Origin: Epinephelus fuscoguttatus
Taxonomy: Eukaryota > Chordata > Actinopteri > Perciformes > Serranidae
DNA length: 64,000 bases
NCBI RefSeq assembly: GCF_011397635.1
Contig: NC_064770.1
Coordinates: 21,483,707-21,547,706, forward strand
Reading direction: 5' to 3'
Position 1 is the stretch's first letter, and each line of letters begins with the position of its first letter. A program made the position numbers and the translations under genes. The notes below the pieces were generated by a model that worked only from the letters and a program-made list of their open reading frames with translations, made no database searches and was not told the DNA's origin. This document shows positions 40,797 through 63,246 of the stretch, in pieces.

Positions 40797-41252
40797 ATGC
40801 TGGGGACCCTCTGCACTCTCATCACTGCTCTAACATGTAAGGAGGCTGACTTACTGCAGCTTTGACCTCATGTTGGATTCATCAGTCTGTGTGTTTCTCT
40901 TGACTCCATGTCATCTTGTTGCTTCCAGGTGTGAGTGCTGTGACGGTGGTGACACAGAAGCCTCCTGTTGTGACGCTGAGGAAAGGAGAGACAGCCACCA
41001 TGGACTGTGATGTTTTTACAGATGATGGGTCTCGCTGGTATAAACAGATTCCAGGAGGAACATTTAAGTTTGTGCTGAGGAATCATCACAGCTATTCCTC
41101 TCCAAATTATGGCTCTGGTTTCTCCGCTCCCAAATTCACTTCTAGTCATTTGTCGGGTACAAAGTATCGTTTGATCATCAGCAATGTGGAGGAGGGAGAC
41201 TCAGCAGTCTATCACTGTGAAACATGGAACGACTCTGTTAAACAGTTTGTAT
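40797..41252 (+). CDS. IgL (L2/sigma-type) variable gene V1, family A
   Basis: The germline V gene encodes the antigen-binding domain of an antibody light chain. Leader exon 40797-40836 (MLGTLCTLITALT plus one base), 92-bp intron, V exon 40929-41252. First Cys in TATMDC, then WYKQIPGG, GSGFSAPKFTS, and the second Cys in DSAVYHC, where the usual YYC has His. It is the most divergent family-A member: the CDR1 region reads DVFTDDGSR in place of the NLGTVT type, and FKFVLRNHHS replaces the PQYVL type. The frame is open. No J or J remnant lies between it and C1. It could still join J2 across C1 by deletion. Confidence 0.9.
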
Positions 41253-41280
41253 CACAGTGATTTACACTGTGACAAAAACC
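41253..41280 (+). other. V1 recombination signal, 12-bp spacer
   Basis: Heptamer CACAGTG 41253-41259, 12-bp spacer, nonamer ACAAAAACC 41272-41280. Confidence 0.95.
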
Positions 41281-42167
41281 TCCTCACTAAACACTTCTGC
41301 TTTTCGAGACTCTGATACATCTGATAATAGAGACATCAAACAACACTCTGTGTAACAACACATTATTCGGTATTTTGTGTTTAATTTAATGATATGTGAT
41401 TCATTTCTACATTAATCAAGGACAAAATATATTTTTTGAAAAAATGAAAAAACATAAGTAATTCACCAGTAATTCAATTTTAATGCAATTCAATTCATTT
41501 TTATTTATAAAGCCCAATATCACAAATCACAATTTGCCTCACAGGGCTTTACAGCATACGACATCCCTCTGTCCTTAGGACCCTCACAGCGGATAAGGAA
41601 AAACTTGACCCCAAAAAAACCCTTTTACTGGCGGAAAAAAATGGTAGAAACCTCAGGAAGAGCAACTGAGGAGGGATCCCTCTTCCAAGATGGACAGACG
41701 TGCAATGGATGTCGTACAGAACAGATCAACACAATACATTTACAATATTCCATATGACAAAATGAGACATAAAGAGAGACAGAGACAGAGAAAGAGATGC
41801 AGGACAGACAGTAATGACAATAGCTTACAACAACATTAATTTAATTAGTAATATTATAATAATAATTACAGCTATTGTGGTACAATATGTTGTAAGTATA
41901 TATTAATATATGATAGTATATGTATGTGACAATAACAATATGTGTATAATAACAGTAGAAGTATGACTAATGATAACAGCAGCAGTAGGCATCATCACGC
42001 AGGACCACGGCAGCAGCGCAACCACGTCATACAATCCAGGCACCGCTGCGATATGAGGTAACCTGCCACACAATGGAGCACAAAGGCTCCAGAGAAGAAG
42101 CTGAGTTAGTGACATGCAGTAGAGCCAAGTTAGCGAGATGCAGTAACAGGACATGAGTGTTAGTAAA

Positions 42168-42193
42168 GGAGAGAGAGAGAGAGAGAGAGAGAA
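42168..42193. repeat. GA microsatellite
   Basis: About 13 GA units inside the LINE 3' region. Confidence 0.9.
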
Positions 42194-42759
42194 GGAGAGA
42201 AGGTGCTCTGTGTATTATAGGGGGTCCTCCGGCACACTAGGCCTAAGTCAGCCTAACTAGGGGCTGGTACAAGGCAAGCCTGAGCCAGCCTGATAATAGG
42301 AATTACAGTACTCCAGCCTTGAGGTAACAAAAGTGTGGACCAGTTTTTCTGCATCTTTTGGGACAGGATAGGCCTAATTTTTGCAATGTTACGCAGATGA
42401 AAAAACGCAGTCCGTGAGGTTTGTTTTAAATGGGAATTGGAACACAAATTTTGGTCAAATATTACTCAGAGGTTTCTTACGATAGTGCTAGAGGCCAGAG
42501 CAATGCAATCCAGAGAAACTATATCATCAGATAAAGAGTTTCTGAGTTGGTTGGTCCGAGAACAATAACTTCAGTTTTGTCTGAATTTAAAATCAGGATA
42601 TGGAGCTCATCCAGGATTTTATGTCTTTAAGGCATTTTTGAAGTTTAGTTAATTAATCAGTTTCTTCTGGCTTTATTGATAAATACAATTGTGTATCATC
42701 TGCATAGCAATGGAAATTTACAGAATGATTTCTGATCATGTTACCTAAGGGAAGCATAT

Positions 42760-43511
42760 TGTAGCAAACCCATTTTGTTTTGGTGCTTGCTGTTTCTCGT
42801 TTTGTTCACCAGAGGGCAGCTTGCATTGTTTGCAGGTCAATTTTGAAAAAACAAATATTTGCTTTAGATACATTTTTGACATGATTTCTTTAAAATATAA
42901 ATTACATGAGTTGTGTTGCTATTAAGAAGATGTAATTTCATTCATTTTTATCTGTATATTTTTGCCCGTTTTGGAGATAATGGTTCCGTTTTTAAACAGT
43001 GAGATTTTATTTTGAAGACCATTACTTCCTACTTCCTTCCTGTGTTATACTGCCGAACAAAACAAAGTCACTTGACTACGGAATGAATGGTAAAACGGTA
43101 AAAGTTCAAGGTAAACAAAGGAAAATAAAACGGCAACGGCAACTTAATGATAAAAACGTCGAAGGCTGAGTGTATTTTGGCAACCCCCCGAGGAGGCATA
43201 AGGTTGGTGTGTGTTGTGCCTGTGGTGATTATTTTCTTACTTTATGATTTGTGTCAAAGGTATGCTAACTCTTTTGCCCACCTGTCTGGTGAATTGGCGG
43301 TGTATTGCTTGGTATAATGTTGAGTTGTCTGAGAAAGTACCGTGATCATTTACCATTTATTATGGACAGAAGTGGAAACAGAAATGTGATTGCTTTGTTT
43401 TCTTTGTTTTGTCAGTTCTCACGTTGGTTTATGGAGCTGGTTTTGTGGAACAGCAATAAACGTTAAAACCATCAGTCGAGTCTCTTACCATCTTTCGGAG
43501 GGTATGCTACA
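42760..43511 (+). mobile_element. Solo LTR of an LTR retrotransposon
   Basis: A 752-bp fossil starting TGTAGCAAACCC and ending GGGTATGCTACA (inverted ends, 11 of 12 matching). It is flanked by the 5-bp direct repeat CATAT at 42755-42759 and 43512-43516. An AATAAA lies near 43455. No internal coding region remains, as after recombination between two LTRs. It sits inside the LINE, so it is the younger of the two. Confidence 0.85.
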
Positions 43512-43789
43512 CATATATAAAGTGAATAGAATTGGTCCAAGCACAAAACCTTGTGGAACTCCAAAACAAACTTTAGTGTGAATGGACGATTCATGGTGAA
43601 CGTGAACGAACTGAAGTTGATCGGATAAATAAGATTTAATATCTACCTCTTGTGAGAGTATTAACACTGACTCAAAGGACATCAGCAGGTCTCCAAAGAC
43701 AACAGGAACAACAACAAAACAAAGTGGAACAAACTGAATTGTCAATAAGCTGTGAAAACACATAAATCCTGTCATTTACGAATGAATGA

Positions 43790-43850
43790 AAACAGTGTTG
43801 AGTGTTGAAACTCCTCCTCCTCCACTTCTCCTCTCCTCACTGTCTTTATT
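43790..43850 (+). promoter_or_regulatory. V-type promoter fused upstream of C1
   Basis: GAGTGTTGAAACTCCTCCTC and the pyrimidine block CTTCTCCTCTCCTCA match the promoters of V3, V4, V6 and V7. The TATA word is TTTATTAG here instead of TTTATAAG. Directly after it (43850-43856) the sequence switches to J-C intron sequence. Confidence 0.7.
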
Positions 43851-44071
43851 AGCTAAATTTCTAAATTTGTGATTGATGGATTGTTGATGTTTTAAAAAGG
43901 AACACTGCTCATATTTTAGGTGTAAATGTGTTTGCAGATTCAAAATGCTTAACTTCTTCAGCGTGTTGGTTATACCGTCAACACAAGCAATAAATGAATC
44001 TCCTACTGTCATGCTTTGTGTTAATGATTTGACTCCTAGTTATGTGATGAATGTCCTTTGTGTATCTTCAG

Positions 44072-44400
44072 GCTCCAGCCTCCCTCCTCCTGTCCTGACA
44101 GTCTTCCCTCCGTCCAGTGCTGAGCTCCAGTCCAACAAAGCCTCTCTGGTCTGTCTGTCCAGTCAGTCTGTGCCTTTTGCAGATGTGAGCTGGTTGCTTG
44201 GTGGGAGTCCAGTGAGCAGTGGGATCTCTACCAGCACCGCTGTTCAGCAAGCAGACCAGACCTTCCAAATCAGCAGCTATCTGGCCGTCCAGACGTCAGA
44301 CTGGAACATGGATAAGGTTTACACATGTAAAGTGTCTTTGGGCTCCCAGACTGCAGAGAAAAACATCAACAAGTCCCACTGTCCCACTGAAGAACAGTAG
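44072..44400 (+). CDS. IgL constant exon C1 (no J upstream)
   Basis: One Ig C1-set domain exon, with acceptor TATCTTCAG before 44072 and stop at 44398-44400, 109 codons including the stop. It reads SLPPPVLTVFPPSSAELQ, the first Cys in KASLVC, Trp in ADVSWLLGG, second Cys in VYTCKVSL, and the last Cys in KSHCPTEEQ, which pairs with the heavy chain. The domain is intact. Unlike C2 and C3 it has no J: the J-C intron is cut and joined to a V promoter about 220 bp upstream. The frame is open back to an ATG at 43945 (MLNFFSVLVIPSTQA). Whether it is used, skipped or dead cannot be told from sequence. Confidence 0.9.
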
Positions 44401-44570
44401 AGGAGCACAATGAGCATTTAACATCTGCTTCTTTACTCTTTGTGCTCTTTGCTCATTACAAGGTTTACATGTTAGAAAAGATGTGTCTGCATGCTTGTAA
44501 TAAATGTTGTGACACTTAGGTGGAGGTGTTGTATCAGCTTTGCAAATGCTGCAGTTTTCAACAATCATTC

Positions 44571-44578
44571 AATAAAAG
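44571..44578 (+). terminator. C1 poly(A) signal
   Basis: AATAAA within TTCAATAAAAGAAG, about 170 bp after the C1 stop, in the same place after C2 and C3. Confidence 0.65.
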
Positions 44579-44970
44579 AAGACAAAAAACAGTTGAAAAA
44601 GTGTTTGTATTTATTTGTACTTGTGAAAACATCATTTAAAAGGACAATGTTCTGCAAATGTTGTCACCTTGACTAGATTGTATTTTTCTCCTGTTGTTCA
44701 TCTCACTGATAATAATCCTGGACACAAAGACAACAGACAGACTTGTTTCTTTAATATTTATATTCAAAATCATAAAGCAACATTGTTATTAGGTGTTAAT
44801 TTGCAATAAAAGCACAGCAGAAAGATGAATATGACTTTGCCTTGTTTTAGTTGCTCACAGTGGTTAAGGCGTTAGAAAAATCAGATGACATGAGCAAATG
44901 AAAGTGAGTTTTCATCCTCCATCAGTGAAGCATCACCTCTCTACTCCTCCCTCTCTTCCTTCCCAGGATG

Positions 44971-45012
44971 CACCTGCAGGCCTCCTCTCCTTATTTATAG
45001 CTCCATGTAAAT
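44971..45012 (+). promoter_or_regulatory. E-box/octamer-like block, copy 1
   Basis: CACCTG 44971-44976 and ATGTAAAT 45005-45012, same spacing as the other copies, about 0.6 kb past the C1 stop. Confidence 0.4.
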
Positions 45013-45450
45013 GAAGAGGTCAAGTGTCAGCTCTCTGTAAAATCAGAGGGAACTGTCTCTGACTGCAAACACACTGAGAGTTGAATCATTAACAGGTTGT
45101 AAATCAAATACAGTTTACGTCTAATGTCTGTAAATTACAATATGTACATGTGAGCAGAGCCAAAGTTTATATCCTCTAGCAGATGTCTGTTGTTGACGTA
45201 TGAAAAACCTGCTCAATGATACAAATATGATAAAGCTTTCATGCATGAATTCCATCCATTAGGAACCAAACAATAGTGACATTCATCTATACTGAAGCAT
45301 TTTGTGACATCAAGACACTGAATTTAGTAAATCATCGTCTACACTGGGTATAATGGATAAATGAAAGAAGATGAGAGTAAGAAATGTGAGAAAGCATGCA
45401 GAGTGAAGCAAAGCTCCTCCTCCTGTCAGTCACTCTCAGTTTCAGTGTGC

Positions 45451-45458
45451 TATTAAAT
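45451..45458 (+). promoter_or_regulatory. TATA-like box of V2
   Basis: TATTAAAT about 110 bp before the V2 leader. Confidence 0.5.
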
Positions 45459-45561
45459 TGCTCCTCCAGCACCTCCTCTCCTCATCCTCCAAAGCCTGTG
45501 ATCTGTCAGCAGTAAGCTGACTTTCCAAGTTACAAGGCCATTCTCAGCACACACTGACAAC

Positions 45562-46023
45562 ATGCTGGGGACCCTCTGCACTCTCATCACTGCTCTAACA
45601 TGTAAGGAGGCTGACTTACTGCAGCTTTGACCTCATGTTGGATTCATCAGTCTGTGTGTTTCTCTTGACTCCATGTCATCTTGTTGTTTCCAGACGTGAG
45701 TGGTGTGACGGTGGTGACACAGAAGCCTCCTGTTGTGGCGCTGAGGAAAGGAGAGACAGCCACCATGGACTGTAACCTGGGGACTGTCACTAATTATGCA
45801 GCAGTCTGGTATAAACAGATTCCAGGAGGAGTTCCTCAGTATGTGCTGGGGTTTCGTCACAGCTGGAGCTCTGTCGACTATAGCTCTGGTTTCTCCTCTC
45901 CAAAGTTCACATCTAATCATCAGTCAACAACAGATTATCGTTTGATCATCAACAATGTGGAGGAGGGAGACTCAGCAGTCTATTACTGTGCTACATGGGA
46001 CAGCTCTGTTGATGAGTACGTAT
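45562..46023 (+). CDS. IgL variable gene V2, family A
   Basis: Leader exon 45562-45601, 92-bp intron, V exon 45694-46023, frame open. It reads VSGVTVVTQKPPVVALRKGE, first Cys in MDCNLGTVT, CDR1 NYAAVW, WYKQIPGGVPQYVLGF, CDR2 RHSWSSVDYSSG, and second Cys in DSAVYYCATWDSSVDEYV. The V exon acceptor gives a YVSG start where sister genes have CVSG or CVSA. It lies 1.16 kb after the C1 stop, as the first V of the next cluster. Framework sequence is nearly identical to V5, V6 and V8; differences gather in the CDR positions. Confidence 0.92.
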
Positions 46024-46051
46024 CACAGTGATTTACACTGTGACAAAAACC
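46024..46051 (+). other. V2 recombination signal, 12-bp spacer
   Basis: Heptamer CACAGTG 46024-46030, 12-bp spacer, nonamer ACAAAAACC 46043-46051. Confidence 0.95.
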
Positions 46052-46320
46052 TCCTCACTACATACTTCTGCTTTTTGACTGTTTGACACATCTTGTCTGG
46101 GAGTAAAGCCATCAGCCAATTCTTTATGTCACCTCTCTCATATATTAGAAACATATTTTAAAACTTCAAATCCCTTTGATTGGATTCTCACAAAAAGCCT
46201 CAGATCTTAGTGGTAGTAACTTACAGTATGTCATGTGTACGTTCATTAATGCAAAAATAGACAATATGCTTGCTGGTAAATGTTGACCACAAGATCTATT
46301 CCACTGTTGGACAAATCAGT

Positions 46321-46600
46321 GTTTACAGTAAATATTCATGTCTTTTGATGCTCATGGAAATAAACAAGTTATTAAAAGTTCTCAGCAGATTCTCATTTGC
46401 TGATCCAAACTCAGACTATGTGATAAATCTTTCTTGACAAAAATGCTCTGGTGCACATGTAGTGAGGATTGTTACACAAACATGTTTTGTATTATATTGT
46501 TATGTTGCAGTTTGTCCCTCTTCATGAACAGGTCGGTAGGTCATCTGGCAGCCAAAGTTACAAAAACTAGAAGTCACGTGCAGATAAAACACAACCAAAC
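46321..46600. repeat. Local direct repeat, copy 1
   Basis: AGTAAATATTCATGTCTTTT through the word AACTAGAAGT returns, diverged, at 47122-47370. It is V-flank sequence duplicated within the V2-V3 interval. Confidence 0.6.
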
Positions 46601-47039
46601 AAACCTCTCCATTAATATAGGGTAATAGTTAATGGGAAAAAGAGAATGTGGTTATTAGTATCAGCAAAGTTACTCAACATGGCTATATACGTATATAGTA
46701 CACTAAAATAAGGTGGTACAATGAATAGGTCTACATAATATTTGATGATGAAGATAACAAAGGTACAGTGCCCTGCTAATTATTAAACAGTTTATTGTCT
46801 TTATACTACACGATAAATCTTGAGCTTCTAACATGAACCACCTATTTGTTTGTATGTTTAATTTTAAAGAGAGTAAATGTCTGATAGCACTCCAATATGT
46901 ACACAAGAGAAATGTAATGATGATATGTAGTAATATGACGATTTATGGTCATGAGCAAAAGACATTATGAAACATGAGATTACTGGTACAAAATGATCTA
47001 CAGATATGACACTGAATCACATTCAGAATGTTTTTCATT

Positions 47040-47110
47040 AATGAGTAAAAAGCTGAGTATAGTTTTGAAACTCCTCCTCCTGCACTTCTCCTCTCCTTCA
47101 GTCTCTCTCT
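47040..47110 (+). promoter_or_regulatory. Orphan V-type promoter
   Basis: AACTCCTCCTCCTGCACTTC resembles the V promoters, but no leader or V exon follows. It is a leftover from a lost V gene. Confidence 0.55.
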
Positions 47111-47121
47111 CAGTCAGTCAT

Positions 47122-47370
47122 TGTAAACAGTAAATATTCATGTCTTTTGACACGAATAAAAATTAACTCGTTTTGAATAATTTACGGCAGATCCTCATTT
47201 GCTGATCCAGATTCAATGAAATGACAATGTAATGGATATTTCTTGATATAAATTCAGCAGTGCAGATGTTTGTTTTGTCCTTCTTTGTGAACAGGTCAAA
47301 GGGTCACCTGACAGTCAAAACTGAAACAAACTAGAAGTGAATGTGCAGCTAAAACATGACCAAATGAAAG
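47122..47370. repeat. Local direct repeat, copy 2
   Basis: Diverged copy of 46321-46600. Confidence 0.6.
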
Positions 47371-47529
47371 TCTTTCTTTTACCTGACAACATTTCATTTA
47401 TATTTTATGATTCGAGATGTGTTTCCAACAGAGGAAAAGAATTAGAATAATTAAAGCTGTTTGCACATGCTGTACATACAGATATGTAGAGTGCTACAGA
47501 GTGCTTATAATCTGAGGGATCACCATGAC

Positions 47530-47920
47530 ATGTGGAGTTCCTCAGGGCACGATTATTGGGCCGCAGTTATTCAACCTGTACATCCTAATTCCATGACAAT
47601 AATGGTTGTTATCACAGCTACATAGATAACACTCAGATGTTTTTAGCTCTTTCATCAAGTGACCATAGTCACTCAGACTCAGTCTATCAATGCTTAGAGA
47701 AAATCAATATTTGGAATTAAATCTATTTAAGGAAATAATGTAAAGAAGTAAAAGAGGATAGAATGAAAGTTATTGATCAGCTTGATTCCACAGCTATAAA
47801 GACAAAAACCCCATCAGAAACTTGGTGTTTAAAGCAGACTCAGATCTGAGCGTCAGCAGTGTCATCAAGGCAATGACTGAAACAACATTTTACCAAAGAT
47901 CAGTAATTGGAGGTCTCATA
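47530..47920 (+). mobile_element. LINE reverse-transcriptase fragment
   Basis: The plus strand reads TCGVPQGTIIGPQLFNLYIL, then a LALSSSDHSHSDS-like stretch and LGVxxDSDLSVSSVIKA-like pieces, with indels. Same family as the fragment at 54191-56640. Confidence 0.65.
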
Positions 47921-48309
47921 GTAAGAAAAGTGTCATAAACATAAAGTCAACATTTGCATTTACACCATGTTATCCCCAAGACTTAACCATGTTTACTGCG
48001 CCTATTTATAACCTGAATAGTCATGTTTAACATAAAACTATACAAACATGAAGGAGTATTTATTTAGTGTGATCAGTCCTTCATGGAAAAATACTACAAA
48101 GTACAGAAACAATTCATGTGATACTAAAACTAGATTTAATACTTAGAGAACATTAACAGACTTCATAAAGCTACATGAAGATGTGTTTCTTAAGAGCAGA
48201 AGAAAAAGTTTATAATGTGAAACCACGTACATAAAGTAGCTGATTTATAAATAAAAACAGAGCTGAGTGTTGAAACTCCTCCTCCTCCACTTCTCCTCTC
48301 CTCAGTGTC

Positions 48310-48317
48310 TTTATAAG
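48310..48317 (+). promoter_or_regulatory. TATA box of V3
   Basis: TTTATAAG after the CTCCTCCTCCTCCACTTC block; the same promoter type precedes V4, V6 and V7. Confidence 0.6.
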
Positions 48318-48464
48318 CTTCAGTCTGTCTTCTCCTCACACTCCAACCCTGCTCACCTCTCAGCTGGACAGTAAGGGACGTTTACACCACACACTGACAA
48401 CATCAACACAGACAACATCAGTCTGTGTGTTTCTCTTGACTCCATGTCATCTTGTTGTTTCCAG

Positions 48465-48791
48465 GTGTGAGTGGTGTGACGGTGGTGACACAGAAGCCTC
48501 CTGTTGTGACGCTGAGGAAAGGAGAGACAGCCACCATGGACTGTAACCTGGGGACTGTGACTGATCAAGCAGTCTAGTATAAACAGATTCCAGGAGGAGT
48601 TCCTCAGTATGTGCTGAGGTTTTATCACAGCTGGAGCTCTGTAGCTTATGGCTCTGGTTTCTCTTCTCCAAAGTTCACATCTAATCATCAGTCAACAACA
48701 GATTATCGTTTGATCATCAACAATGTGGAGGAGGGAGACTCAGCAGTCTATCACTGTAAAACATGGGACAGCTCTGCTAATGAGTTCGTAT
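48465..48791 (+). pseudogene. IgL variable pseudogene V3, family A
   Basis: The V exon has the family-A pattern (VSGVTVVTQKPPVVTLRKGE, second Cys in VYHCKTWDSSANEFV) and a recombination heptamer. Two defects are visible. The leader exon and the start of its intron are deleted: the sequence jumps from CACTGACAACAT to CAACACAGACAACATCAG. The FR2 Trp codon is TAG (GCAGTCTAGTATAAACAG). It cannot make a light chain but could donate sequence in gene conversion. Confidence 0.92.
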
Positions 48792-48819
48792 CACAGTGAT
48801 TTACACTGTGACAAAACAC
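48792..48819 (+). other. V3 recombination signal, weak nonamer
   Basis: Heptamer CACAGTG 48792-48798, 12-bp spacer, nonamer changed to ACAAAACAC (48811-48819). Confidence 0.8.
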
Positions 48820-49502: not shown

Positions 49503-49566
49503 AATGAAAACAGAGCTGAGTGTTGAAACTCCTCCTCCTCCACTTCTCCTCTCCTCAGTGTCTTTA
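49503..49566 (+). promoter_or_regulatory. Second orphan V-type promoter
   Basis: Full promoter block ending TCAGTGTCTTTA, joined straight to LINE sequence. The working V4 promoter follows 210 bp later. Confidence 0.55.
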
Positions 49567-49715: not shown

Positions 49716-49778
49716 ATGAATGAAAACAGAGTTGAGTGTTGAAACTCCTCCTCCTCCACTTCTCCTCTCCTCAGTGTC

Positions 49779-49870: not shown

Positions 49871-50325
49871 ATGCTGGGGACCCTCTGCACTCTCATCACT
49901 GCTCTAACATGTAAGATATTCTTCTCAGTCCTTTTATAGCCCATATTTTCACACACAAACCTTTGACTCATGTATTTTTCTCTGTATGTTGACAGATGTT
50001 GATGCAGCCAAAGTGCTGACCCAGACGCCTGCTGTCCACACAGTTTCTACAGGACAACAAGTTGTTCTCAACTGCAACATTCAGAGATATGATGGAAAAT
50101 ATGTCCGCTGGTATAAACAGGTTCCTGGTGAAGCTCCTCAGTTTGTTCTGGAGTTTCATTATTCTAACAGTGCACTCAACTTTGGATCAGGATTCTCCTC
50201 AGACAGATTCAACTGTAAATCCACATCAAACATAGATTACCAGTTCATCATAAAGCGGACAGAGACAGGAGACTCTGCTGTCTATTACTGTAAGACATGG
50301 GATGACTCTGCTGATGAAACTGTAT
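49871..50325 (+). CDS. IgL variable gene V4, family B, next to J2
   Basis: Leader exon 49871-49910 (same MLGTLCTLITALT as family A), 85-bp intron, V exon 49996-50325, frame open. The V domain differs from family A: VDAAKVLTQTPAVHTVSTGQ, first Cys in VVLNCNIQRYDGKYV, RWYKQVPGEAPQFVLEF, HYSNSALNFGSGFSSDRF, and second Cys in DSAVYYCKTWDDSADETV. It is the V nearest to a J, 0.3 kb away. With J2 and C2 it forms the only cluster in the window whose V-J-C set is intact throughout. Confidence 0.93.
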
Positions 50326-50353
50326 CACAGTGATTCACACTGTGACAAAAACC
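50326..50353 (+). other. V4 recombination signal, 12-bp spacer
   Basis: Heptamer CACAGTG 50326-50332, 12-bp spacer, nonamer ACAAAAACC 50345-50353. Confidence 0.95.
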
Positions 50354-50597
50354 TCAGTGAGAGACTCACTGCAGATTTTATGAATTCTGATCAAAATCAA
50401 ACAATTAAAATCAGTAAACATGAAGCAAAACAAGAACAGACATTAAATAAATTCCCCTAAAGAGACAAAAGTGTTTGAAACAAGTCCAGCAGTGTTTTGG
50501 AATATAATGAGACTGATGAAGTGAAGAGACGTTGACAGTGAAAGTTGGTCTCAACAGGATGTTTCAGTTCCACTCCCCTCATTAGTGAGAGTCAGGA

Positions 50598-50636
50598 GGT
50601 TTTTGTACAGCCATGTGTACAAACTGAATCACTGTG
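50598..50636 (+). other. J2 recombination signal, 23-bp spacer
   Basis: Nonamer GGTTTTTGT 50598-50606, 23-bp spacer, heptamer CACTGTG 50630-50636. It pairs with the 12-bp V signals under the 12/23 rule; this V12/J23 layout is that of kappa and sigma, not lambda. Confidence 0.95.
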
Positions 50637-50670
50637 GTATTCGGACAAGGCACCAAGCTGATTGTGACAA
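50637..50670 (+). CDS. IgL joining segment J2
   Basis: 34 bp reading VFGQGTKLIVT plus one base, then donor GTAAGT. It carries the FGxG motif of light-chain J. The leftover base A joins the C exon start to give Ser (A + GT in C2). It begins with GTAT, the same four bases with which every V here ends. Confidence 0.95.
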
Positions 50671-51531
50671 GTAAGTACTTTTTAACTCATCATAAAACAG
50701 CACAGATTTTATGTTTCTCATTCAAATTAAGACAAAATGGTCAATTTACAATCTGTTAAATAAAAAGAAAGAAAGAAATATTCAACACATTGTTTGGTGA
50801 ATAATAGATAAGTGGTTCTACATCTGTTTGATATCAGGCTGTGTGTCTGAAGGCAAACGATCACAATTTTTAAGTATTTTATACAAATATTCAGAAGGTT
50901 TTTTGATGGCAAAGGAGTTTTAAACATTTGGGCAACATTTACAAGATTATTTATTTTCATGACTTATGACAAGTTTTAACATTTCAAAACTCTGCATTAA
51001 TTATTCTGTAAAGAGTATTTTATATTGTGATATTAATAGTAAAATATTGTTCTTGTGATATTTATTTACTTATCCTCTAACGTTCTGATATATTTTAAAC
51101 TTCATGTGAATATGATTGTGGCTGTTTGAAGTATTATTTTTATTAGGTGGTTAGATAGACACCACAAAGCAAAGTGACTTCTGATATACCTGAAACTGTC
51201 ACAGTGATTTAAATTATTATATTAGAATTTTAATAACATTATGTAAAGTACAGAGGGTGAATTAATGACAGTTTCCACCTTAACAATTAAAATTAACTCA
51301 TGAAAAATATTTCTAAATTTGTGATTGATGGATTGTTGATGTTTTAAAAAGGAACACTGCTCATATTTTAGGTGATGATTTCTAAATGTGTTTGCAGATT
51401 CAAAATGCTTAACTTCTTCAGCGTGTTGGTTATATCCTCAACACAAGCAATAAATGAATCTCCTACTGTCATGCTTTGTGTTAATGATTTGACTCCTAGT
51501 TATGTGATGAATGTCCTTTGTGTATCTTCAG

Positions 51532-51869
51532 GTTGCAGCCTCCCTCCTCCTGTCCTGACAGTCTTCCCTCCGTCCAGTGCTGAGCTCCAGTCCAACAAAG
51601 CCTCTCTGGTCTGTATTTCCATTTTGCCCAGTGAATCTAAGGGTTTTGCAGATGTGAGCTGGTTGCTTGGTGGGAGTCCAGTGAGCAGTGGGATCTCTAC
51701 CAGCACCGCTGTTCAGCAAGCAGACCAGACCTTCCAAATCAGCAGCTATCTGGCCGTCCAGACGTCAGACTGGAACATGGATAAGGTTTACACATGTAAA
51801 GTGTCTTTGGGCTCCCAGACTGCAGAGAAAAACATCAACAAGTCCCACTGTCCCACTGAAGAACAGTAG
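51532..51869 (+). CDS. IgL constant exon C2
   Basis: Ig C1-set domain, 338 bp, acceptor ATCTTCAG before 51532, stop at 51867-51869, frame open. It has the same backbone as C1 (SLPPPVLTVFPPSSAELQ, VYTCKVSL, KSHCPTEEQ). After the first Cys, however, it reads ISILPSESKGFADVSWLL where C1 and C3 have LSSQSVPFADVSWLL, which is three residues longer and quite different in one loop. It begins with Cys (SCSLPPP) where C1 and C3 have Ser, an extra unpaired Cys at the J-C border. It is spliced to J2 across an 861-bp intron. Confidence 0.94.
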
Positions 51870-52040
51870 AGGAGCACAATGAGCATTTAACATCTGCTTC
51901 TTTACTCTTTGTGCTCTTTGCTCATTACAAAGTTTACATGTTAGAAAAGATGTGTCTGCATGCTTGTAATAAATGTTGTGACACTTAGGTGGAGGTGTTG
52001 TATCAGCTTTGCAAATGCTGCGTTTTTCAACAATCATTCA

Positions 52041-52046
52041 ATAAAA
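52041..52046 (+). terminator. C2 poly(A) signal
   Basis: AATAAA in TTCAATAAAATAAG, about 170 bp after the stop. Confidence 0.65.
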
Positions 52047-52430
52047 TAAGAAAAAAAAACAGTTGAAAAAGTGTTTGTATTTATTTGTACTTGTGAAAAC
52101 ATCATTTAAAAGGATAATGTTCTGCAAATGTTGTCACCTTGACTAGATTGTATTTTTCTCCTGTTGTTCATGTCACTGATAATAATCCTGGACACAAAGA
52201 CAACAGACAGACTTGTTTCTTTAATATTTATATTCAAAATCATAAAGCAACATTGTTATTAGGTGTTAATTTGCAATAAAAGCACAGCAGAAAGATGAAT
52301 ATGACTTTGCCTTGTTTTAGTTGCTCACAGTTGTTAAGACGTTAGAAAAATCAGATGACATGAGCAAATGAAACTGAGTTTTCATCCTCCATCAGTGAAG
52401 CAACTCCTCCCTCTCTTCCTTCCCAGGATG

Positions 52431-52472
52431 CACCTGCAGGCCTCCTCTCCTTATTTATAGCTCCATGTAAAT
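52431..52472 (+). promoter_or_regulatory. E-box/octamer-like block, copy 2
   Basis: CACCTG 52431-52436 and ATGTAAAT 52465-52472. Confidence 0.4.
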
Positions 52473-52909
52473 GAAGAGGTCAAGTGTCAGCTCTCTGTAA
52501 AATCAGAGGGAACTGTCTCTGACTGCAAACACACTGAGAGTTTAATCACCATTTGGTCAGTCAGGCAGTTTACGTCTCATATCTGTGAATTGCAGTACAT
52601 GTGAGCAGAGCCAAAGTTTATATCCTGCAATAAATGCATCGATGTCTGTTGCTAACGTATGAAAAACCTGCTCAATGATACAAATATGATCAAGCTTTCA
52701 TGCATGAATTCCATCCATTAGGAACCAAACAATAGTGACATTCATCTATACTGAAGTATTTTGTGACATCATGACACTGAATTTAGTAAATCATCGTCTA
52801 CACTGGGTATAATGGATAAATGAAAGAAGATGAGAGTAAGAAATGTGAGAAAGCATGCAGAGTGAAGCAAAGCTCCTCCTCCTGTCAGTCACTCTCAGTT
52901 TCAGTGTGC

Positions 52910-52917
52910 TATTAAAT
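52910..52917 (+). promoter_or_regulatory. TATA-like box of V5
   Basis: TATTAAAT about 110 bp before the V5 leader. Confidence 0.5.
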
Positions 52918-53020
52918 TGCTCCTCCAGCACCTCCTCTCCTCATCCTCCAAAGCCTGTGATCTGTCAGCAGTAAGCTGACTTTCCAAGTTACAAGGCCAT
53001 TCTCAGCACACACTGACAAC

Positions 53021-53482
53021 ATGCTGGGGACCCTCTGCACTCTCATCACTGCTCTAACATGTAAGGAGGCTGACTTACTGCAGCTTTGACCTCATGTTGG
53101 ATTCATCAGTCTGTGTGTTTCTCTTGACTCCATGTCATCTTGTTGTTTCCAGGTGTGAGTGCTGTGACGGTGGTGACACAGAAGCCTCCTGTTGTGACGC
53201 TGAGGAAAGGAGAGACAGCCACCATGGACTGTAACCTGGGGACTGTGACTGGTTATCCAGCAGTCTGGTATAAACAGATTCCAGGAGGAGTTCCTCAGTA
53301 TGTGCTGAGGTTTCGTCACAGCTGGAGCTCTGTAGAATATGGCTCTGGTTTCTCCTCTCCAAAGTTCACATCTAATCATCAGTCAACAACAGATTATCGT
53401 TTGATCATCAACAATGTGGAGGAGGGAGACTCAGCAGTCTATTACTGTAAAACATGGGACAGCTCTGCTAATGAGTACGTAT
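53021..53482 (+). CDS. IgL variable gene V5, family A
   Basis: Leader exon 53021-53060, 92-bp intron, V exon 53153-53482, frame open. It reads VSAVTVVTQKPPVVTLRKGE, first Cys in MDCNLGTVT, CDR1 GYPAVW, CDR2 FRHSWSSVEYGSG, second Cys in YYCKTWDSSANEYV. It is the first V after C2, 1.15 kb past its stop, in the same relation as V2 to C1 and V8 to C3. Confidence 0.93.
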
Positions 53483-53510
53483 CACAGTGATTTACACTGT
53501 GACAAAAACC
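53483..53510 (+). other. V5 recombination signal, 12-bp spacer
   Basis: Heptamer CACAGTG 53483-53489, 12-bp spacer, nonamer ACAAAAACC 53502-53510. Confidence 0.95.
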
Positions 53511-56135: not shown

Positions 56136-56723
56136 GTGCTTAGACTCACTCTGTCAATGCTTAGAACAAGTCAACAGCTGGATGCAATCAAATGTCCTTC
56201 AAATAAATAAAGACAGAAAAGAAATCATTGTTTTTGGCAACAAGGAGGAAAGAATGAATGTTACTGCAGTTTCTGATTCCAGAGCTATAAAGACAAAAAC
56301 CCCAGTCAGAAAACTTGGTGTTTATTTAGACTCAGATCTGAGCTTCAGCAGCGTCATCAAGGCAAGAACTGAATCAGCATTTTATCATCTTTAAAAAAGA
56401 GCAAGATTTAGAGAAACTCATTCATGCCATAATATCCAGCAGGGTGGACCAATGTAACAGTGTCCTTTCTGATCTTCCCCAAAAGACAGTCAGACAACTT
56501 CAGCTCACTGAAAACTCTGCTGCTAGAATTCCAACACCAACCAAGAGAACAGAGCACATTACCTCGTTCTTAAATCTCTGCAGTGGCTTCAAGTGACTTA
56601 ATGGATAGATTTTAAAATGCTGCTGTTAGTTTTAAATGACTCAATAATCTCAGAGCAATAATGAATGAAAACAGAGCTGAGTGCTGAAACTCCTCCTCCT
56701 CCACTTCTCCTCTCCTCAGTGTC

Positions 56724-56731
56724 TTTATAAG
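56724..56731 (+). promoter_or_regulatory. TATA box of V6
   Basis: TTTATAAG after the CTCCTCCTCCTCCACTTC block, about 80 bp before the leader. Confidence 0.6.
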
Positions 56732-56810
56732 CTTCAGTCTCTCTCTCCACTCCAACCCTGCTCACCTCTCAGCTGGACAGTAAGGGACGTTTACACCACA
56801 CACTGACAAC

Positions 56811-57272
56811 ATGCTGGGGACCCTCTGCACTCTCATCACTGCTCTAACATGTAAGGAGGCTGACTTACTGCAGCTTTGACCTCATGTTGGATTCATCAGT
56901 CTGTGTGTTTCTCTTGACTCCATGTCATCTTGTTGTTTCCAGGTGTGAGTGGTGTGACGGTGGTGACACAGAAGCCTCCTGTTGTGACGCTGAGGAAAGG
57001 AGAGACAGCCACCATGGACTGTAACCTGGGGACTGTGACTGATCGACAAGCGGCCTGGTATAAACAGATTCCAGGAGGAGTTCCTCAGTATGTGCTGAGG
57101 TTTTATCACACCTGGAGCTCTGTTAAATATGGCTCTGGTTTCTCCTCTCCAAAGTTCACATCTAATCATCAGTCAACATCAGATTATCGTTTGATCATCA
57201 ACAATGTGGAGGAGGGAGACTCAGCAGTCTATTACTGTAAAACATGGGACGACTCTGCTAAAGAGTACGTAT
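56811..57272 (+). CDS. IgL variable gene V6, family A
   Basis: Leader exon 56811-56850, 92-bp intron, V exon 56943-57272, frame open. It reads VSGVTVVTQKPPVVTLRKGE, first Cys in MDCNLGTVT, CDR1 DRQAAW, CDR2 FYHTWSSVKYGSG, second Cys in YYCKTWDDSAKEYV. It is a family-A V body behind the promoter type used by V4 and V7 (TTTATAAG), as in V3. That points to promoter exchange or unequal crossing-over. Confidence 0.93.
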
Positions 57273-57300
57273 CACAGTGATTTACACTGTGACAAAAACC
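57273..57300 (+). other. V6 recombination signal, 12-bp spacer
   Basis: Heptamer CACAGTG 57273-57279, 12-bp spacer, nonamer ACAAAAACC 57292-57300. Confidence 0.95.
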
Positions 57301-57660
57301 TCCTCACTACATACTTCTGCTTTTTCAGAAACTCCCACTTGTTGACTTCTGAAGTGATGATTTGCTGCAGCTAAACTCCCTAAAACTCTGTGTAACTACT
57401 CACAACTTCATTTTTTTCAAATTTCACAACATTAACTAATGAAAGTATTTATTTGTTTGTACCTAAAAATTAAAAAAAAGAATATGTAATACATCAGTAA
57501 ACGCACTCCACCTACATCCTAACTATCTGATATTTTCATATTCAGGTTTTAAATCCAACTGTATTTTGCCACATATTATCTTTATGTTCACTGACACTGT
57601 TTTAGATACACAAACTATGATAATTATTTTTTTGGATCAATCCTCTGCTGCCCAGGTAGT

Positions 57661-59255
57661 TTATTGTTTATTTAGGATCCCCATTAGTTGTTACCACAGC
57701 AACAGCTATTCTTCCTGGGGTCCACACAACAGACAAACATTCAACATCACATTACAAGCAATTCACAATATCACAATATCAAAAACAAATGAATTAAAGA
57801 AGAGGGAATAAGTCGTCCTCTCCCATTCATGTAAGCTAAACAATACATTGTAAAAACGGATCATAATTAGTAGGCTGGTGTGTACAGTGTAACTGCCCAA
57901 AAGTACAATGCACAGTGAACTTCAATATAATATTTCACTGTAATACAATACAAATACAGGTACAGACATTTCAGTGATAATAAAATACCAATATAATCAA
58001 CCTTCACATACAAATCATCATATGTTACCTAAGCTGACTTCTTTCTGAATAATTGCTGTTCTTAATTATTTTATAAAACGGATCCTACTGCTAATCTGGG
58101 TTAAATGTATTGGTAGTTTGTTCCAGTTTGACATAGCCCTGTATACTACAGTTTTCTTTAAAGCATTGCTTTTGGGTAAAGGTAATGTAAAGCGTCCCAT
58201 GAGGGCATGTCTGGTGTTATAATAATGTCTGTCATTGGTGTGTGTTAGCTGTGAGTATAAGTAGCTAGGTTTTTTTAAGTCACGAATATTTCTCACATAT
58301 TGGATCAGGCTGTATGCCAGTCTCTCTTCCACCTGCATCCATGACAGTCTGGCATGCATCCCGTCCACACTGTCTCTCATTGAGCAGTGAAGAGCAAGGC
58401 GGGCAGCTCTGTTTGGATGAGCTGGATCTTATTAAGCTCGCTTATTATGCAGATAGTTTGAGGAGTAGATCAAAAGCTGCACTGAAGTCCAGCAGTACTG
58501 TACCTACCATTAACTTTTTATCAATGTGTTTTAAAAAGTCATCTGTTAATTGTGTTAAAGTTGTACATGTTGAATAACCTACCTTATATGCATGCTGGAA
58601 TTCTGAGTTGATATTGTTTTCCGAGAAGTACTGCTGAATCTGTTTAAATACAATACACTCCATCAGTTTGCTTAAAGCAGGTAAAATGCTAATAGGTCGA
58701 CTATTTGGTCCAGTAAATAATGCCTTGCTATTTTTCGGAAGAGGAGTAACCTTTGCTATCTTCCACTTTTGTGGATAAACACCTTCATTCAGACATAAAT
58801 TAAAAATATGACACAGACGCTTTGCCACAATCCTAGATGATATCTGTAGTAATTTATAATCCAGATGATCATAACCACAAGGTTTATCACATTTCAATGA
58901 CAAGAGCAGTTTTTCTATTTCTACTATATTAGTATTGATAAAATCAAATTTACATTTTTTGTCATGCATAATATGTTGTTTAATTAGTGACTCAGGCAGC
59001 TTACCATTCACTGGCAACATCTGATTTCTCATTGTATCCACTTTACCTATAAAATAATCGTTAAAATAATTAGCAATATCTGGAGGTTTGGTAATAAATC
59101 CACCATCAGATTCAATAAATGAGGGAATTGTATTAATTTTATCTTTACCCATTATTTCATGAAGGGTTCTCCATAACTTTTTGCAATCACCTTTTATTTC
59201 CTCAATCTTGGATTGATAATATTTCTTTTTCTTTTGTTGATTGATTTTTGTGCAA
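57661..59255 (-). mobile_element. LINE with reverse-transcriptase domain, internally deleted
   Basis: A minus-strand frame from 59272 to 58445 encodes the first part of an RT: KKLWRTLHEIMGKDKINTIP, GYDHLDYKLLQISSRIVAKR, NSRPISILPALSKLMECIVF, GTVLLDFSAAFDLL. The tail frame 58380-58066 has HYYNTRHALMGRFTLPLPKS. The piece between them, where the RT catalytic motif belongs, is missing. The 3' end near 57661 reads TGGGGATCCTAAATAAACAA on the minus strand. It is one of the better preserved LINEs here. Confidence 0.8.
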
Positions 59256-59515
59256 GATTTAGAGAAACTCATTCATGCCATAATATCCAGCAGGGTGGAC
59301 CAATGGAACAGTGTCCTTTCTGATCTTCCCCAAAAGACAGTCAGACAACTTCAGCTCATTGAAAACTCTGCTGCTAGAATTCCAGCACCAACCAAGAGAA
59401 CAGAGCACATTACCTCGTTCTTAAATCTCTACAGTGGCTTCAAGTGACTTAATGGATAGATTATAAAATGCTGCTGTTAGTTTTTAAACGTCTCAATAAT
59501 CTCAGAGCATTAATG
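59256..59515 (+). mobile_element. LINE fragment carried with V7
   Basis: The plus strand reads DLEKLIHAIISSRVDQWNSV and LIENSAARIPAPTKRTEHIT. Same piece as before V6 and V4. Confidence 0.65.
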
Positions 59516-59578
59516 AATGAAAACAGAGTTGAGTGTTGAAACTCCTCCTCCTCCTCCACTTCTCCTCTCCTCAGTGTC

Positions 59579-59586
59579 TTTATAAG
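59579..59586 (+). promoter_or_regulatory. TATA box of V7
   Basis: TTTATAAG, about 90 bp before the V7 leader. Confidence 0.6.
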
Positions 59587-59670
59587 CTTCAGTCTGTCTT
59601 CTCCTCACACTCCAACCCTGCTCACCTCTCAGCTGGACAGTAAGGGACGTTTACACCACACACTGAAAAC

Positions 59671-60123
59671 ATGCTGGGGACCCTCTGCACTCTCATCACT
59701 GCTCTAACATGTAAGATATTCTTCTCAGTCCTTTTATAGCCCATATTTTCACACACAAACCTTTGACTCGTGTATTTTTCTCTGTATGTTGACAGATGTT
59801 GATGCAGCCAAAGTGGTGACCCAGACGCCTGCTGTCCACAGTTTCTACAGGACAACAAGTTGTTCTCAACTGCAACATTCAGAGAGATGACAGATATGTC
59901 AGCTGGTATAAACAGGTTCCTGGTGAAGCTCCTCAGTATGTTCTGAGATTTTACCCTTCTCACAGTGCACCAGATGACTTTGGATCAGGATTCTCCTCAG
60001 ACAGATTCAACTCTAAATCCTCATCAAACATAGATTACCAGTTCATCATAAAGCGGACAGAGACAGGAGACACTGCTGTCTATTACTGTGAGACATGGGA
60101 TGACTCTGCTGCTGCAGCTGTAT
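59671..60123 (+). pseudogene. IgL variable pseudogene V7, family B
   Basis: Leader exon 59671-59710, 85-bp intron, V exon 59796-60123. It is a sister of V4 with the same layout before a J. Near 59838 it reads GCTGTCCACAGTTTC where V4 has GCTGTCCACACAGTTTC. This 2-bp loss shifts the frame before the first Cys. The rest stays recognisable (SWYKQVPGEAPQYVLRF, YYCETWDDSAAAAV), and the signal is intact. It could be a sequencing or assembly error, but its C3 partner is also frameshifted. Confidence 0.85.
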
Positions 60124-60151
60124 CACAGTGATTCACATTGTGACAAAAACC
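60124..60151 (+). other. V7 recombination signal, 12-bp spacer
   Basis: Heptamer CACAGTG 60124-60130, 12-bp spacer, nonamer ACAAAAACC 60143-60151. Confidence 0.95.
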
Positions 60152-60383
60152 TCAGTGAGAGACTCACTGCAGATTTGATGAATTCTGATCAAAATCAAAC
60201 AATTAAAATCAGTAAACTTGGAACAAAACAAGAACAGACATTAAATAAATCTCTTGTGAGAGACAAGAGTGTTTTTAGTGTTTTGAAATATAATGAGACT
60301 GATGAAGTGAAGAGACGTTGACAGTGAAAGTTGGTCTCAACAGGATGTTTCAGTTCCACTCCCCTCATTAGTGAGAGTCAGGA

Positions 60384-60422
60384 GGTTTTTGTACAGCCAT
60401 GTGTACAAACTGAATCACTGTG
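60384..60422 (+). other. J3 recombination signal, 23-bp spacer
   Basis: Nonamer GGTTTTTGT 60384-60392, 23-bp spacer identical to that of J2, heptamer CACTGTG 60416-60422. Confidence 0.95.
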
Positions 60423-60456
60423 GTATTCGGACAAGGCACCAAGCTGATTGTGACAA
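60423..60456 (+). CDS. IgL joining segment J3
   Basis: Identical in sequence to J2 (VFGQGTKLIVT plus one base, donor GTAAGT). It starts with GTAT. Confidence 0.95.
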
Positions 60457-61309
60457 GTAAGTACTTTTTAACTCATCATAAAACAGCACAGATTTTATGT
60501 TTCTCATTCAAATTAAGAGAAAATGGTCAATTTATAATCTGATAAATAAAAAGAAAGAAAGAAATATTCAACACATTGTTTGGTGAATAATAGATAAGTG
60601 GTTCTACATCTGTTTGATATCAGGCTGTGTGTCTGAAGGCAAACGATCACAATTTTTAAGTATTTTATACAAATATTCAGAAGGTTTTTTGATGGCAAAG
60701 GAGTTTTAAACATTTGGGCAACATTTACAAGATTATTTATTTTCATAACTTATGACAAGATTTAACATTTCAAAACTCTGCATTAATTATTCTGTAAAGA
60801 GTATTTTATATTGTGATAATAGTAAAATATTGTTCTTGTGATATTTATTTACTTATCCTCTAACGTTCTGATATATTTAAACTTCATGTGAATATGATTG
60901 TGGCTGTTTGAAGTATTATTTATTAGGTGGTTAGATAGACACCACAAAGCAAAGTGACTTGATATACCTGAAACTGTCACAGTGATTTAAATTATTATAT
61001 TAGAATTTTCATAACATTATGTAAAGTACAGAGGGTGAATTAATGACAGTTTCCACCTTAACAATTAAAATTAACTCATGAAAAATATTTCTAAATTTGT
61101 GATTGATGGATTGTTGATGTTTTCAAAAGGAACACTGCTCATATTTTAGGTGATGATTTCTAAATGTGTTTGCAGATTCAAAATGCTTAACTTCTTCAAC
61201 GTGTTGGTTATATCGTCAACACAGCCAATAAATGAATCTCCTACTGTCATGCTTTGTGTTAATGATTTGACTCCTAGTTATGTGATGAATGTCCTTTGTG
61301 TATCTTCAG

Positions 61310-61633
61310 GCTCCAGCCTCCCTCTTCCTGTCCTGACAGTCTTCCCTCCGTCCAGTGCTGAGCTCCAGTCCAACAAAGCCTCTCTGGTCTGTCTGTCCAG
61401 TCAGTCTGTGCCTTTTGCAGATGTGAGCTGGTTGCTTGGTGGGAGTCCAGTGAGCAGTGGATCTCTACCAGCACCGCTGTTCAGCAAGCAGACCAGACCT
61501 TCCAAATCAGCAGCTATCCGCCCAGACGTCAGACTGGAACATGGATAAGGTTTACACATGTACAGTGTCTTTGGGCTCCCAGACTGCAGAGAAAAACATC
61601 AACAAGTCCCACTGTCCCACTGAAGAACAGTAG
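61310..61633 (+). pseudogene. IgL constant exon C3, frameshifted
   Basis: Same exon as C1 (SLPLPVLTVFPPSSAELQ, LSSQSVPFADVSWLLGG), but 324 bp against 329 in C1. One base is missing in AGCAGTGGATCTC (C1: AGCAGTGGGATCTC) and four in AGCTATCCGCCCAG (C1: AGCTATCTGGCCGTCCAG). The net loss of five bases keeps the frame broken, so the second half of the domain, with its Cys and the C-terminal Cys, is out of frame. It is either a pseudogene or an assembly error. Confidence 0.85.
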
Positions 61634-61803
61634 AGGAGCACAATGAGCATTTAACATCTGCTTCTTTACTCTTTGTGCTCTTTGCTCATTACAAGCTTTA
61701 CATGTTAGAAAAGATGTGTCTGCATGCTTGTAATAAATGTTGTGACACTTAGGTGGAGGTGTTGTATCAGCTTTGCAAATGCTGCAGTTCTTCAACAATC
61801 ATT

Positions 61804-61809
61804 CAATAA
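61804..61809 (+). terminator. C3 poly(A) signal
   Basis: AATAAA in TTCAATAAAAGAAA, about 170 bp after the stop. Confidence 0.6.
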
Positions 61810-62197
61810 AAGAAAAAAAAAAAGTTGAAAAAGTGTTTGTATTTATTTGTACTTGTGAAAACATCATTTAAAAGGATAATGTTCTGCAAATGTTGTCACC
61901 TTGACTAGATTGTATTTTTCTCCTGTTGTTCATCTCACTGATAATAATCCTGGACACAAAGAACAGAGCTTGTTTCTTTAATATTTATATTCAAAATCAT
62001 AAAGCAACATTGTTATTAGGTGTTAATTTGCAATAAAAGCACAGCAGAAAGATGAATATGACTTTGCCTTGTTTTAGTTGCTCACAGTGGTTAAGACGTT
62101 AGAAAAATCAGATGACATGAGCAAATGAAAGTGAGTTTTCATCCTCCATCAGTGAAGCATCACCTCTCTACTCCTCCCTCTCTTCCTTCCCAGGATG

Positions 62198-62239
62198 CAC
62201 CTGCAGGCCTCCTCTCCTTATTTATAGCTCCATGTAAAT
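62198..62239 (+). promoter_or_regulatory. E-box/octamer-like block, copy 3
   Basis: CACCTG 62198-62203 and ATGTAAAT 62232-62239. Confidence 0.4.
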
Positions 62240-62676
62240 GAAGAGGTCAAGTGTCAGCTCTCTGTAAAATCAGAGGGAACTGTCTCTGACTGCAAACACA
62301 CTGAGAGTTGAATCATTAACAGGTTGTAAATCAAATACAGTTTACGTCTAATGTCTGTAAATTACAATATGTACATGTGAGCAGAGCCAAAGTTTATATC
62401 CTCTAGCAGATGTCTGTTGTTGACCTATGAAAAACCTGCTCAATGATACAAATATGATAAAGCTTTCATGCGTGAATTCCATCCATTAGGAACCAAAAAA
62501 AGTGACATTCATCTATACTGAAGTATTTTGTGACATCATGACACTGAATTTAGTAAATCATCATCTACACTGGGTATAATGGATACATTGAAGAAGATGA
62601 GAGTGAGAAATGTGAGAAAGCATGCAGAGTGAAGCAAAGCTCCTCCTCCTGTCAGTCACTCTCAGTTTCAGTGTGC

Positions 62677-62684
62677 TATTAAAT
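62677..62684 (+). promoter_or_regulatory. TATA-like box of V8
   Basis: TATTAAAT about 110 bp before the V8 leader. Confidence 0.5.
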
Positions 62685-62787
62685 TGCTCCTCCAGCACCT
62701 CCTCTCCTCATCCTCCAAAGCCTGTGATCTGTCAGCAGTAAGCTGACTTTCCAAGTTACAAGGCCATTCTCAGCACACACTGACAAC

Positions 62788-63246
62788 ATGCTGGGGACCC
62801 TCTGCACTCTCATCACTGCTCTAACATGTAAGGAGGCTGACTTACTGCAGCTTTGACCTCATGTTGGATTCATCAGTCTGTGTGTTTCTCTTGACTCCAT
62901 GTCATCTTGTTGCTTCCAGGTGTGAGTGCTGTGACGGTGGTGACACAGAAGCCTCCTGTTGTGACGCTGAGGAAAGGAGAGACAGCCACCATGGACTGTA
63001 ACCTGGGGACTGTGACTGATAAAGCAGTCTGGTATAAACAGATTCCAGGAGGAGTTCCTCAGTATGTGCTGAAGTTTTTTCACAGCTGGAGCTCTGTACA
63101 GTATGGCTCTGGTTTCTCCTCTCCAAAGTTCACATCTAATCATCAGTCAACATCAGATTATCGTTTGATCATCAACAATGTGGAGGAGGGAGACTCAGCA
63201 GTCTATTACTGTCACACATGGGACGACTCTGCTAAAGAGGAGGTAT
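62788..63246 (+). CDS. IgL variable gene V8, family A
   Basis: Leader exon 62788-62827, 92-bp intron, V exon 62920-63246, frame open. It reads VSAVTVVTQKPPVVTLRKGE, first Cys in MDCNLGTVT, CDR1 DKAVW (one residue shorter than V2, V5 and V6), CDR2 FFHSWSSVQYGSG, second Cys in YYCHTWDDSAKEEV. Its J and C lie right of the window. It is the first V after C3. Confidence 0.93.

Follow-up and report, generated by a model that had tools for sequence, protein, structure and literature searches.

A light-chain locus with matched V and J ends

The window analysed here, a stretch of 64,000 nucleotides from contig C19 (NC_064770.1) of the fish Epinephelus fuscoguttatus (C19:21483707-21547706), is part of a teleost immunoglobulin light-chain locus in which the variable (V), joining (J) and constant (C) segments share one transcriptional orientation. 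Our subject is the four-base word GTAT, which stands at the coding ends of both V and J segments, directly beside their recombination signal sequences (RSSs). In Pfam, the translated V-J and C sequences match no models more specific than V-set, C1-set and other general immunoglobulin-domain ones. The eight V segments of the window form two families, A and B, with 56-62% identity between them and 81-97% within them, and six of the eight look intact; the V ending at 48791 has a stop at the tryptophan position of framework region 2 (FR2), and the V ending at 60123 carries a 2-bp frameshift upstream of the junction. The two J-C units are duplicated copies with 95% identity over 2.4 kb and an identical J stretch. 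RSS spacers measure 12 bp at all eight V and 23 bp at both J, and the nonamer is ACAAAAACC, except at the third V, where it reads ACAAAACAC. The features are listed below in window coordinates, with all V exon starts inferred from the splice AG.

40929-41252, plus strand: V1 exon, family A, GTAT at 41249-41252
41253-41280, plus strand: 12-RSS of V1
45694-46023, plus strand: V2 exon, family A, GTAT at 46020-46023
46024-46051, plus strand: 12-RSS of V2
48465-48791, plus strand: V3 exon, family A, stop at the FR2 tryptophan, GTAT at 48788-48791; a leader pattern search found none
48792-48819, plus strand: 12-RSS of V3, nonamer ACAAAACAC
49996-50325, plus strand: V4 exon, family B, GTAT at 50322-50325
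50326-50353, plus strand: 12-RSS of V4
50598-50636, plus strand: 23-RSS of the first J
50637-50670, plus strand: first J exon, GTAT at 50637-50640, reading V-F-G-Q-G-T with one codon before Phe; putative donor GTAAGT next
51532-51869, plus strand: C exon (C1-set) of the first J-C unit
53153-53482, plus strand: V5 exon, family A, GTAT at 53479-53482
53483-53510, plus strand: 12-RSS of V5
56943-57272, plus strand: V6 exon, family A, GTAT at 57269-57272
57273-57300, plus strand: 12-RSS of V6
59796-60123, plus strand: V7 exon, family B, 2-bp frameshift, GTAT at 60120-60123
60124-60151, plus strand: 12-RSS of V7
60366-62767, plus strand: second J-C unit copy, 95% identity to 50580-53000
60384-60422, plus strand: 23-RSS of the second J
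60423-60456, plus strand: second J exon, GTAT at 60423-60426, same sequence as the first J
62920-63246, plus strand: V8 exon, family A, GTAT at 63243-63246
63247-63274, plus strand: 12-RSS of V8

The initial annotation reported that eight V exons end in GTAT directly before the heptamer and that both J begin with GTAT after CACTGTG, and every position it listed proved exact. The sequence GTATCACAGTG occurs at 41249, 46020, 48788, 50322, 53479, 57269, 60120 and 63243 and at no other place in the window, and CACTGTGGTAT occurs at 50630 and 60416, so that the GTAT of the J segments starts at 50637 and 60423. When the two copies of GTAT are overlapped flush, every V-J pair of the window reads GTA-TTC-GGA in frame at the junction. 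The annotation's statement that each pair is in frame therefore holds at the junction itself, and has to be qualified for V3 and V7, which carry their stop and frameshift upstream. A chance match was ruled out, as the exact 11-mer is confined to V ends in the window and the pattern recurs at two loci.

Genome-wide searches covered 1.047 Gb in 26 contigs of this species. The locus of the window extends to approximately 21.59 Mb, where its second arm is inverted, and a second locus with the same pattern lies on C19 at 18.79-18.85 Mb; V and J orientation is uniform within each arm. Over the two loci, window included, 38 of 39 V end in GTAT. Thirty-eight of these V (37 with GTAT) were recovered by tblastn in two fetched C19 regions, and one more, masked upstream and also ending in GTAT, enters this total but not the end, homology, codon, tree and joining-model counts. 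The two regions were located by a GTAT-RSS pattern, which related V elsewhere with other ends would escape. All 11 J found genome-wide start with GTAT and begin GTATTCGGACAAGGCAC; the search pattern contained GTATTCGG, and a wider J pattern without GTAT returned the same 11 J and no additional J at the two loci. Three matches of the wider pattern, on C3, C9 and C12, were set aside as chance. GTAT-RSS matches on C15 (2 of 36 places) were excluded because the adjoining segments have a 12-RSS on one side and a 23-RSS on the other, which by our reading resembles T-cell receptor (TCR) delta and not a light chain.

In 37 of 38 V, no V-J homology reached by losing up to 12 nt is longer than the flush 4-bp overlap, which is in frame; two of these 37 have another in-frame match of equal length. 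The sole V without GTAT ends in GCAT (C19:18825930) and has a weak nonamer, ACAAAACCT; its longest homology is a GTAT located four bases inward, out of frame. In each of the 35 distinct V ends, which represent the 38 V, the Cys codon is equally far from the end, and thus the germline length of complementarity-determining region 3 (CDR3) is uniform. We propose, with a probability of about 0.7, that this germline 4-bp direct repeat biases end joining to one in-frame junction and a fixed CDR3 length.

Some variation in the RSSs of the same segments was also observed. The J at C19:21589614 has a spacer of 24 bp rather than 23, the sole such case among the 11 J. The 12-bp spacer of family A in the window is ATTTACACTGTG, which places an inverted heptamer next to the nonamer (CACAGTG-ATTTA-CACTGTG-ACAAAAACC); this spacer is altered in several V of family B and in one of family A at the second locus.

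Isotype of the locus

The V12/J23 signals, the shared orientation of V, J and C and the short J together suggest that this is a sigma/L2-type light-chain locus. The V12/J23 signals are not isotype-specific, as kappa has them too, and J has 3 nt before Phe here versus 7 nt in the kappa J of the same fish. We take the zebrafish chromosome 12 locus to be its L2/sigma counterpart, presumably, on the basis of the old names V2/J2/C2 in one table. Comparison across species was drawn from published papers. In zebrafish, the chromosome 12 locus likewise has V, J and C in one orientation and V12/J23 signals, its C group with carp type 3, and by our own count from Table 1 of that paper all three of its J exons are 35 nt long, compared with 38-42 nt for 13 of the 14 at other loci (PMC3014032). 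Deep sequencing of cod sigma recovered about 100 unique CDR3 with little length variation (PMC11223323), with which the constant CDR3 length anticipated by the initial annotation agrees. The excerpts of the literature searched, cod and zebrafish texts included, contain no description of matched V and J coding ends in sigma/L2.

Conservation of GTAT as DNA

GTAT is conserved as DNA, beyond what coding for valine alone would require. Between families A and B of the window, agreement is 45% over the 12 nt before GTAT, 100% in GTAT, 100% in the heptamer, 88% in the spacer, 96% in the nonamer and 30% in the 3' flank. On a tree of 34 V (four of the 38, with scrambled or frameshifted upstream sequence, being omitted), parsimony assigns 18, 13 and 12 changes to the three positions of the codon before GTA, 0, 1 and 0 to those of GTA, and 0 to the final T. 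With 43 changes in total, the codon before GTA is the most changed of the exon, followed by a codon with 39.

Conservation at this position could reflect protein constraint only, if protein structure favours Val ahead of Phe-Gly where CDR3 ends and the match between V and J is a by-product. Val precedes Phe-Gly in the best PDB match, which is an antibody light chain, and the G and T of the codon hardly vary, as is expected of replacement sites. However, J by itself can provide the Val, and the choice of codon is not that of valines in general: elsewhere in the 33 stop-free V, Val is encoded by GTT 113 times, GTG 85, GTC 65 and GTA 8 (n=271), whereas the terminal codon is GTA in 32 of 33. These codon counts omit five V with a stop in the 102-codon stretch and include one garbled stop-free V (18798458). 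Moreover, the T after GTA completes no germline V codon, yet it is kept in 39 of 39 V. We consider an explanation by protein alone unlikely.

The same T bears on a second alternative, namely that GTAT is kept for better cleavage, as a RAG coding flank or as the edge of a conserved RSS block. GTAT indeed adjoins a block conserved between the families while the sequence on either side diverges, and the J flank, reading ATAC into the heptamer, resembles CTATAC, which one study found to be the most active among three flanks (PMC9723617). A cleavage preference, however, predicts similar inverted ends, whereas the flank read towards the heptamer is GTAT at V and ATAC at J. The match is thus a direct repeat, the orientation required for joining but not for a preference in cleavage. 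T beside the heptamer is reported often to inhibit nicking (PMC7337519), yet it is present in all 39 V; the kappa V of the same fish have A in that place (10 of 10 ends examined). There seems to be little chance that cleavage explains the pattern.

The match could also have been fixed in a single ancestor and inherited through recent duplication without functional weight. The J-C copies are 95% alike with an identical J stretch, apart from V1, the window's family A V share 92-97% identity, and one of the 39 V has drifted to GCAT. On the same tree, however, the codon upstream has 12-18 changes per site and the four GTAT sites have one change together, and the sequence 3' of the RSS is unlike between the families (30%). 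Inheritance alone appears highly improbable. In our opinion the proposed effect of the repeat on V-J joining is the best explanation; the kappa genes of the same genome provide a control.

Kappa genes of the same fish

Kappa J are located on C14 and C17 (n=47 with the wider J pattern), and 37 of them start with GTGG, GTAC, GTTG or GTGC. All ten kappa V ends examined have GTTCA, seven of them as GTGTTCA. GTTCA precedes an RSS at 66 places, with a spacer of 12 bp (13 bp in one case), in a search whose pattern included GTTCA, so that kappa V with other ends would escape it. Kappa V and J have opposite orientations in the stretches examined. For the analysis of pairs we combined 10 V ends with 12 J variants picked from the 47, giving 120 pairs; one duplicate V end, one non-V match and one further V, also with GTTCA, were omitted.

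Of the 120 pairs of kappa V and kappa J, 100 have no flush overlap, 10 overlap flush by 1 bp and 10 by 5 bp. All 5-bp overlaps are in frame and come from J starting with GTTCA (C17:9160045 and C17:9226106, both with a consensus 23-RSS). If up to 12 nt may be lost, at least 88 of the 120 pairs have their longest match in frame, though its place varies and trimming is usually needed; since kappa pairs thus have homologies further in, mostly in frame, kappa joining may be steered as well. When isotypes are crossed, none of the 10 kappa V ends has a flush 4-bp overlap with the L2 J, and of the 456 pairs of L2 V with the 12 kappa J variants, 38 overlap flush by 2 bp and 418 have no flush overlap. 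Of the light chains examined, L2 is the only one in which a complete flush match extends over a whole isotype.

The kappa J that start with GTTCA, the 5-bp word ending kappa V, recall a further explanation, in which flush repeats preserve the arrangement left by a founding transposon insertion that split a V-J exon, in the manner of a target-site duplication. Were this correct, the whole isotype would still join at the duplication and would be a nearly hard-wired, pattern-recognition-like light chain. The words of kappa and L2 differ, which argues against a single relic, and Transib-type duplications are 5 bp (PMC10322711) versus the 4-bp match of L2. We regard this origin as very unlikely.

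Comparison with known joining systems

In fetal mouse gamma-delta TCR genes, short coding-end homology together with low TdT leads to near-invariant canonical junctions, but this concerns a few specific V-J pairs and not an isotype with dozens of V. A close published case is zebrafish TCR-alpha (tra), where microhomology-directed V-J joining has been demonstrated (Giorgetti et al. 2023, PMC10322711). On a non-selectable tra allele more than three quarters of the joins are in frame, and a shift of the RSS by 1 bp almost inverts the ratios; the authors propose that transposon target-site duplications seeded such homologies, and they treat light chains as less suited to in-depth comparison (PMC10322711). 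Like the L2 locus, tra is a VJ locus where the RSS has a fixed position relative to the frame and V and J ends keep matching bases, and it has an in-frame bias and no requirement for TdT (both predicted in the case of L2). Unlike L2, its homology consists mainly of a TG dinucleotide or single bases near the RSS and follows four patterns, and each pair has three dominant lengths, whereas L2 has one 4-bp repeat flush with both RSSs and common to nearly all pairs.

A milder version is found in the sterlet kappa locus IgL1, where all V1.1 studied end in GTGTTCA, 9 of 10 J start with GT, N bases are absent and the V1.1-J junctions have an invariable valine (PMC5985310). This resembles L2 in being a light chain with a fixed V end word and, as would be predicted for L2, no N bases, and differs in the kappa isotype and in a match of 2 bp set back from the V end. 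As GTGTTCA occurs in the kappa V of both sterlet and the present fish, fixed kappa V ends look old in ray-finned fish. The sigma/L2 loci of cod and zebrafish agree with the present one in the V12/J23 signals, the single V-J-C orientation and, in cod, the small variation in CDR3 length.

A proposed model of V-J joining

The proposed bias could arise as follows. RAG would cut beside the heptamers, leaving V ends that finish in GTAT and J ends that start with it. After hairpin opening and slight resection of the ends, GTAT of the V top strand would be able to anneal with ATAC of the J bottom strand, and non-homologous end joining would retain a single copy of GTAT. The product, GTA-TTC-GGA (Val-Phe-Gly), would be in frame, with the V segment setting the length of CDR3. 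If TdT is low during light-chain rearrangement, the overlap would be the natural productive outcome, since an untrimmed blunt join adds four bases and shifts the frame.

To illustrate the possible size of the effect, we used toy calculations on the 35 distinct V ends, which are not measurements. With an e-fold bonus per matched base, the overlap product makes up 71-85% of the joins and 79-88% are in frame, compared with approximately 32% in frame for random V ends; with a doubled exponent the overlap product reaches 92-96%.

Several considerations weigh against the proposed bias. In the same calculations, allowing overlaps with zero bonus reduces the overlap product to 25-37% and in-frame joins to 45-52%, and random trimming that makes no use of homology gives 9-11% and one third, respectively, with no in-frame gain. 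The argument for steering is made from germline ends and not from junctions of this fish, and low TdT in its B cells is a presumption. The copies do not count as independent, for the V fall into two deep lineages and the 11 J, identical over the matched stretch, represent a single one. As the J copies are duplicated and the V belong to two families, the ten ends of the window are not ten independent cases. GTAT is also the edge of a larger conserved block, for the whole RSS is conserved between the families, including the spacer (88%). The sterlet V1.2 and V1.3 have another end word, and P bases occur at some of the junctions that they form (PMC5985310). Finally, 8 of 31 fourfold sites are without any change, so that the invariance of the third base of GTA is unremarkable taken by itself.

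This last point concerns the initial annotation directly, as it had deduced selection from the fact that families A and B both keep GTAT. Such an argument is weak alone, considering that fourfold sites agree between the families 47% of the time and that 8 of 31 are unchanged; selection is better indicated by the bias towards GTA, by the readily changed codon upstream and by the T that is unfavourable to RAG. Similarly, where a built-in 4-bp homology for V-J joining had been claimed, the homology is present at nearly all V and all J and is constrained at the DNA level, and steering of the joining reaction is its likely explanation, so that the reading given in the annotation is supported in part.

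Other features of the locus

The two arms at C19:21.525-21.591 Mb are in opposite orientation, which would make inversional V-J joining between them possible. A third J-C unit copy near 44 kb of the window (43857-45541) has C and is without J, and a further fragment at 39671-40776 consists only of sequence downstream of C. At approximately 2.7-15.3 kb of the window the locus is flanked by open reading frames that, on inspection, look like iRhom (RHBDF; plus strand) and AANAT (minus strand). A search of prokaryote contigs for the C domain gave 92 pattern stretches and no relative, and an RSS pattern search of viral contigs gave no match.

Implications for receptor assembly in fish

Since V-J joining by microhomology has already been demonstrated in zebrafish TCR-alpha (PMC10322711), the novelty is less than the initial annotation held: the L2 locus is an unusually complete and clean case of a known principle, not a new mechanism. 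If the proposed bias is correct, one in-frame product would dominate, an excess of in-frame joins would be expected even on silent alleles, and the single V ending in GCAT would serve as a natural control. The matching of L2 ends could account for the low variation in CDR3 length of cod sigma, and microhomology-programmed receptor assembly would take in, besides TCR-alpha of fish, an isotype of antibody light chain that represents it at its simplest.

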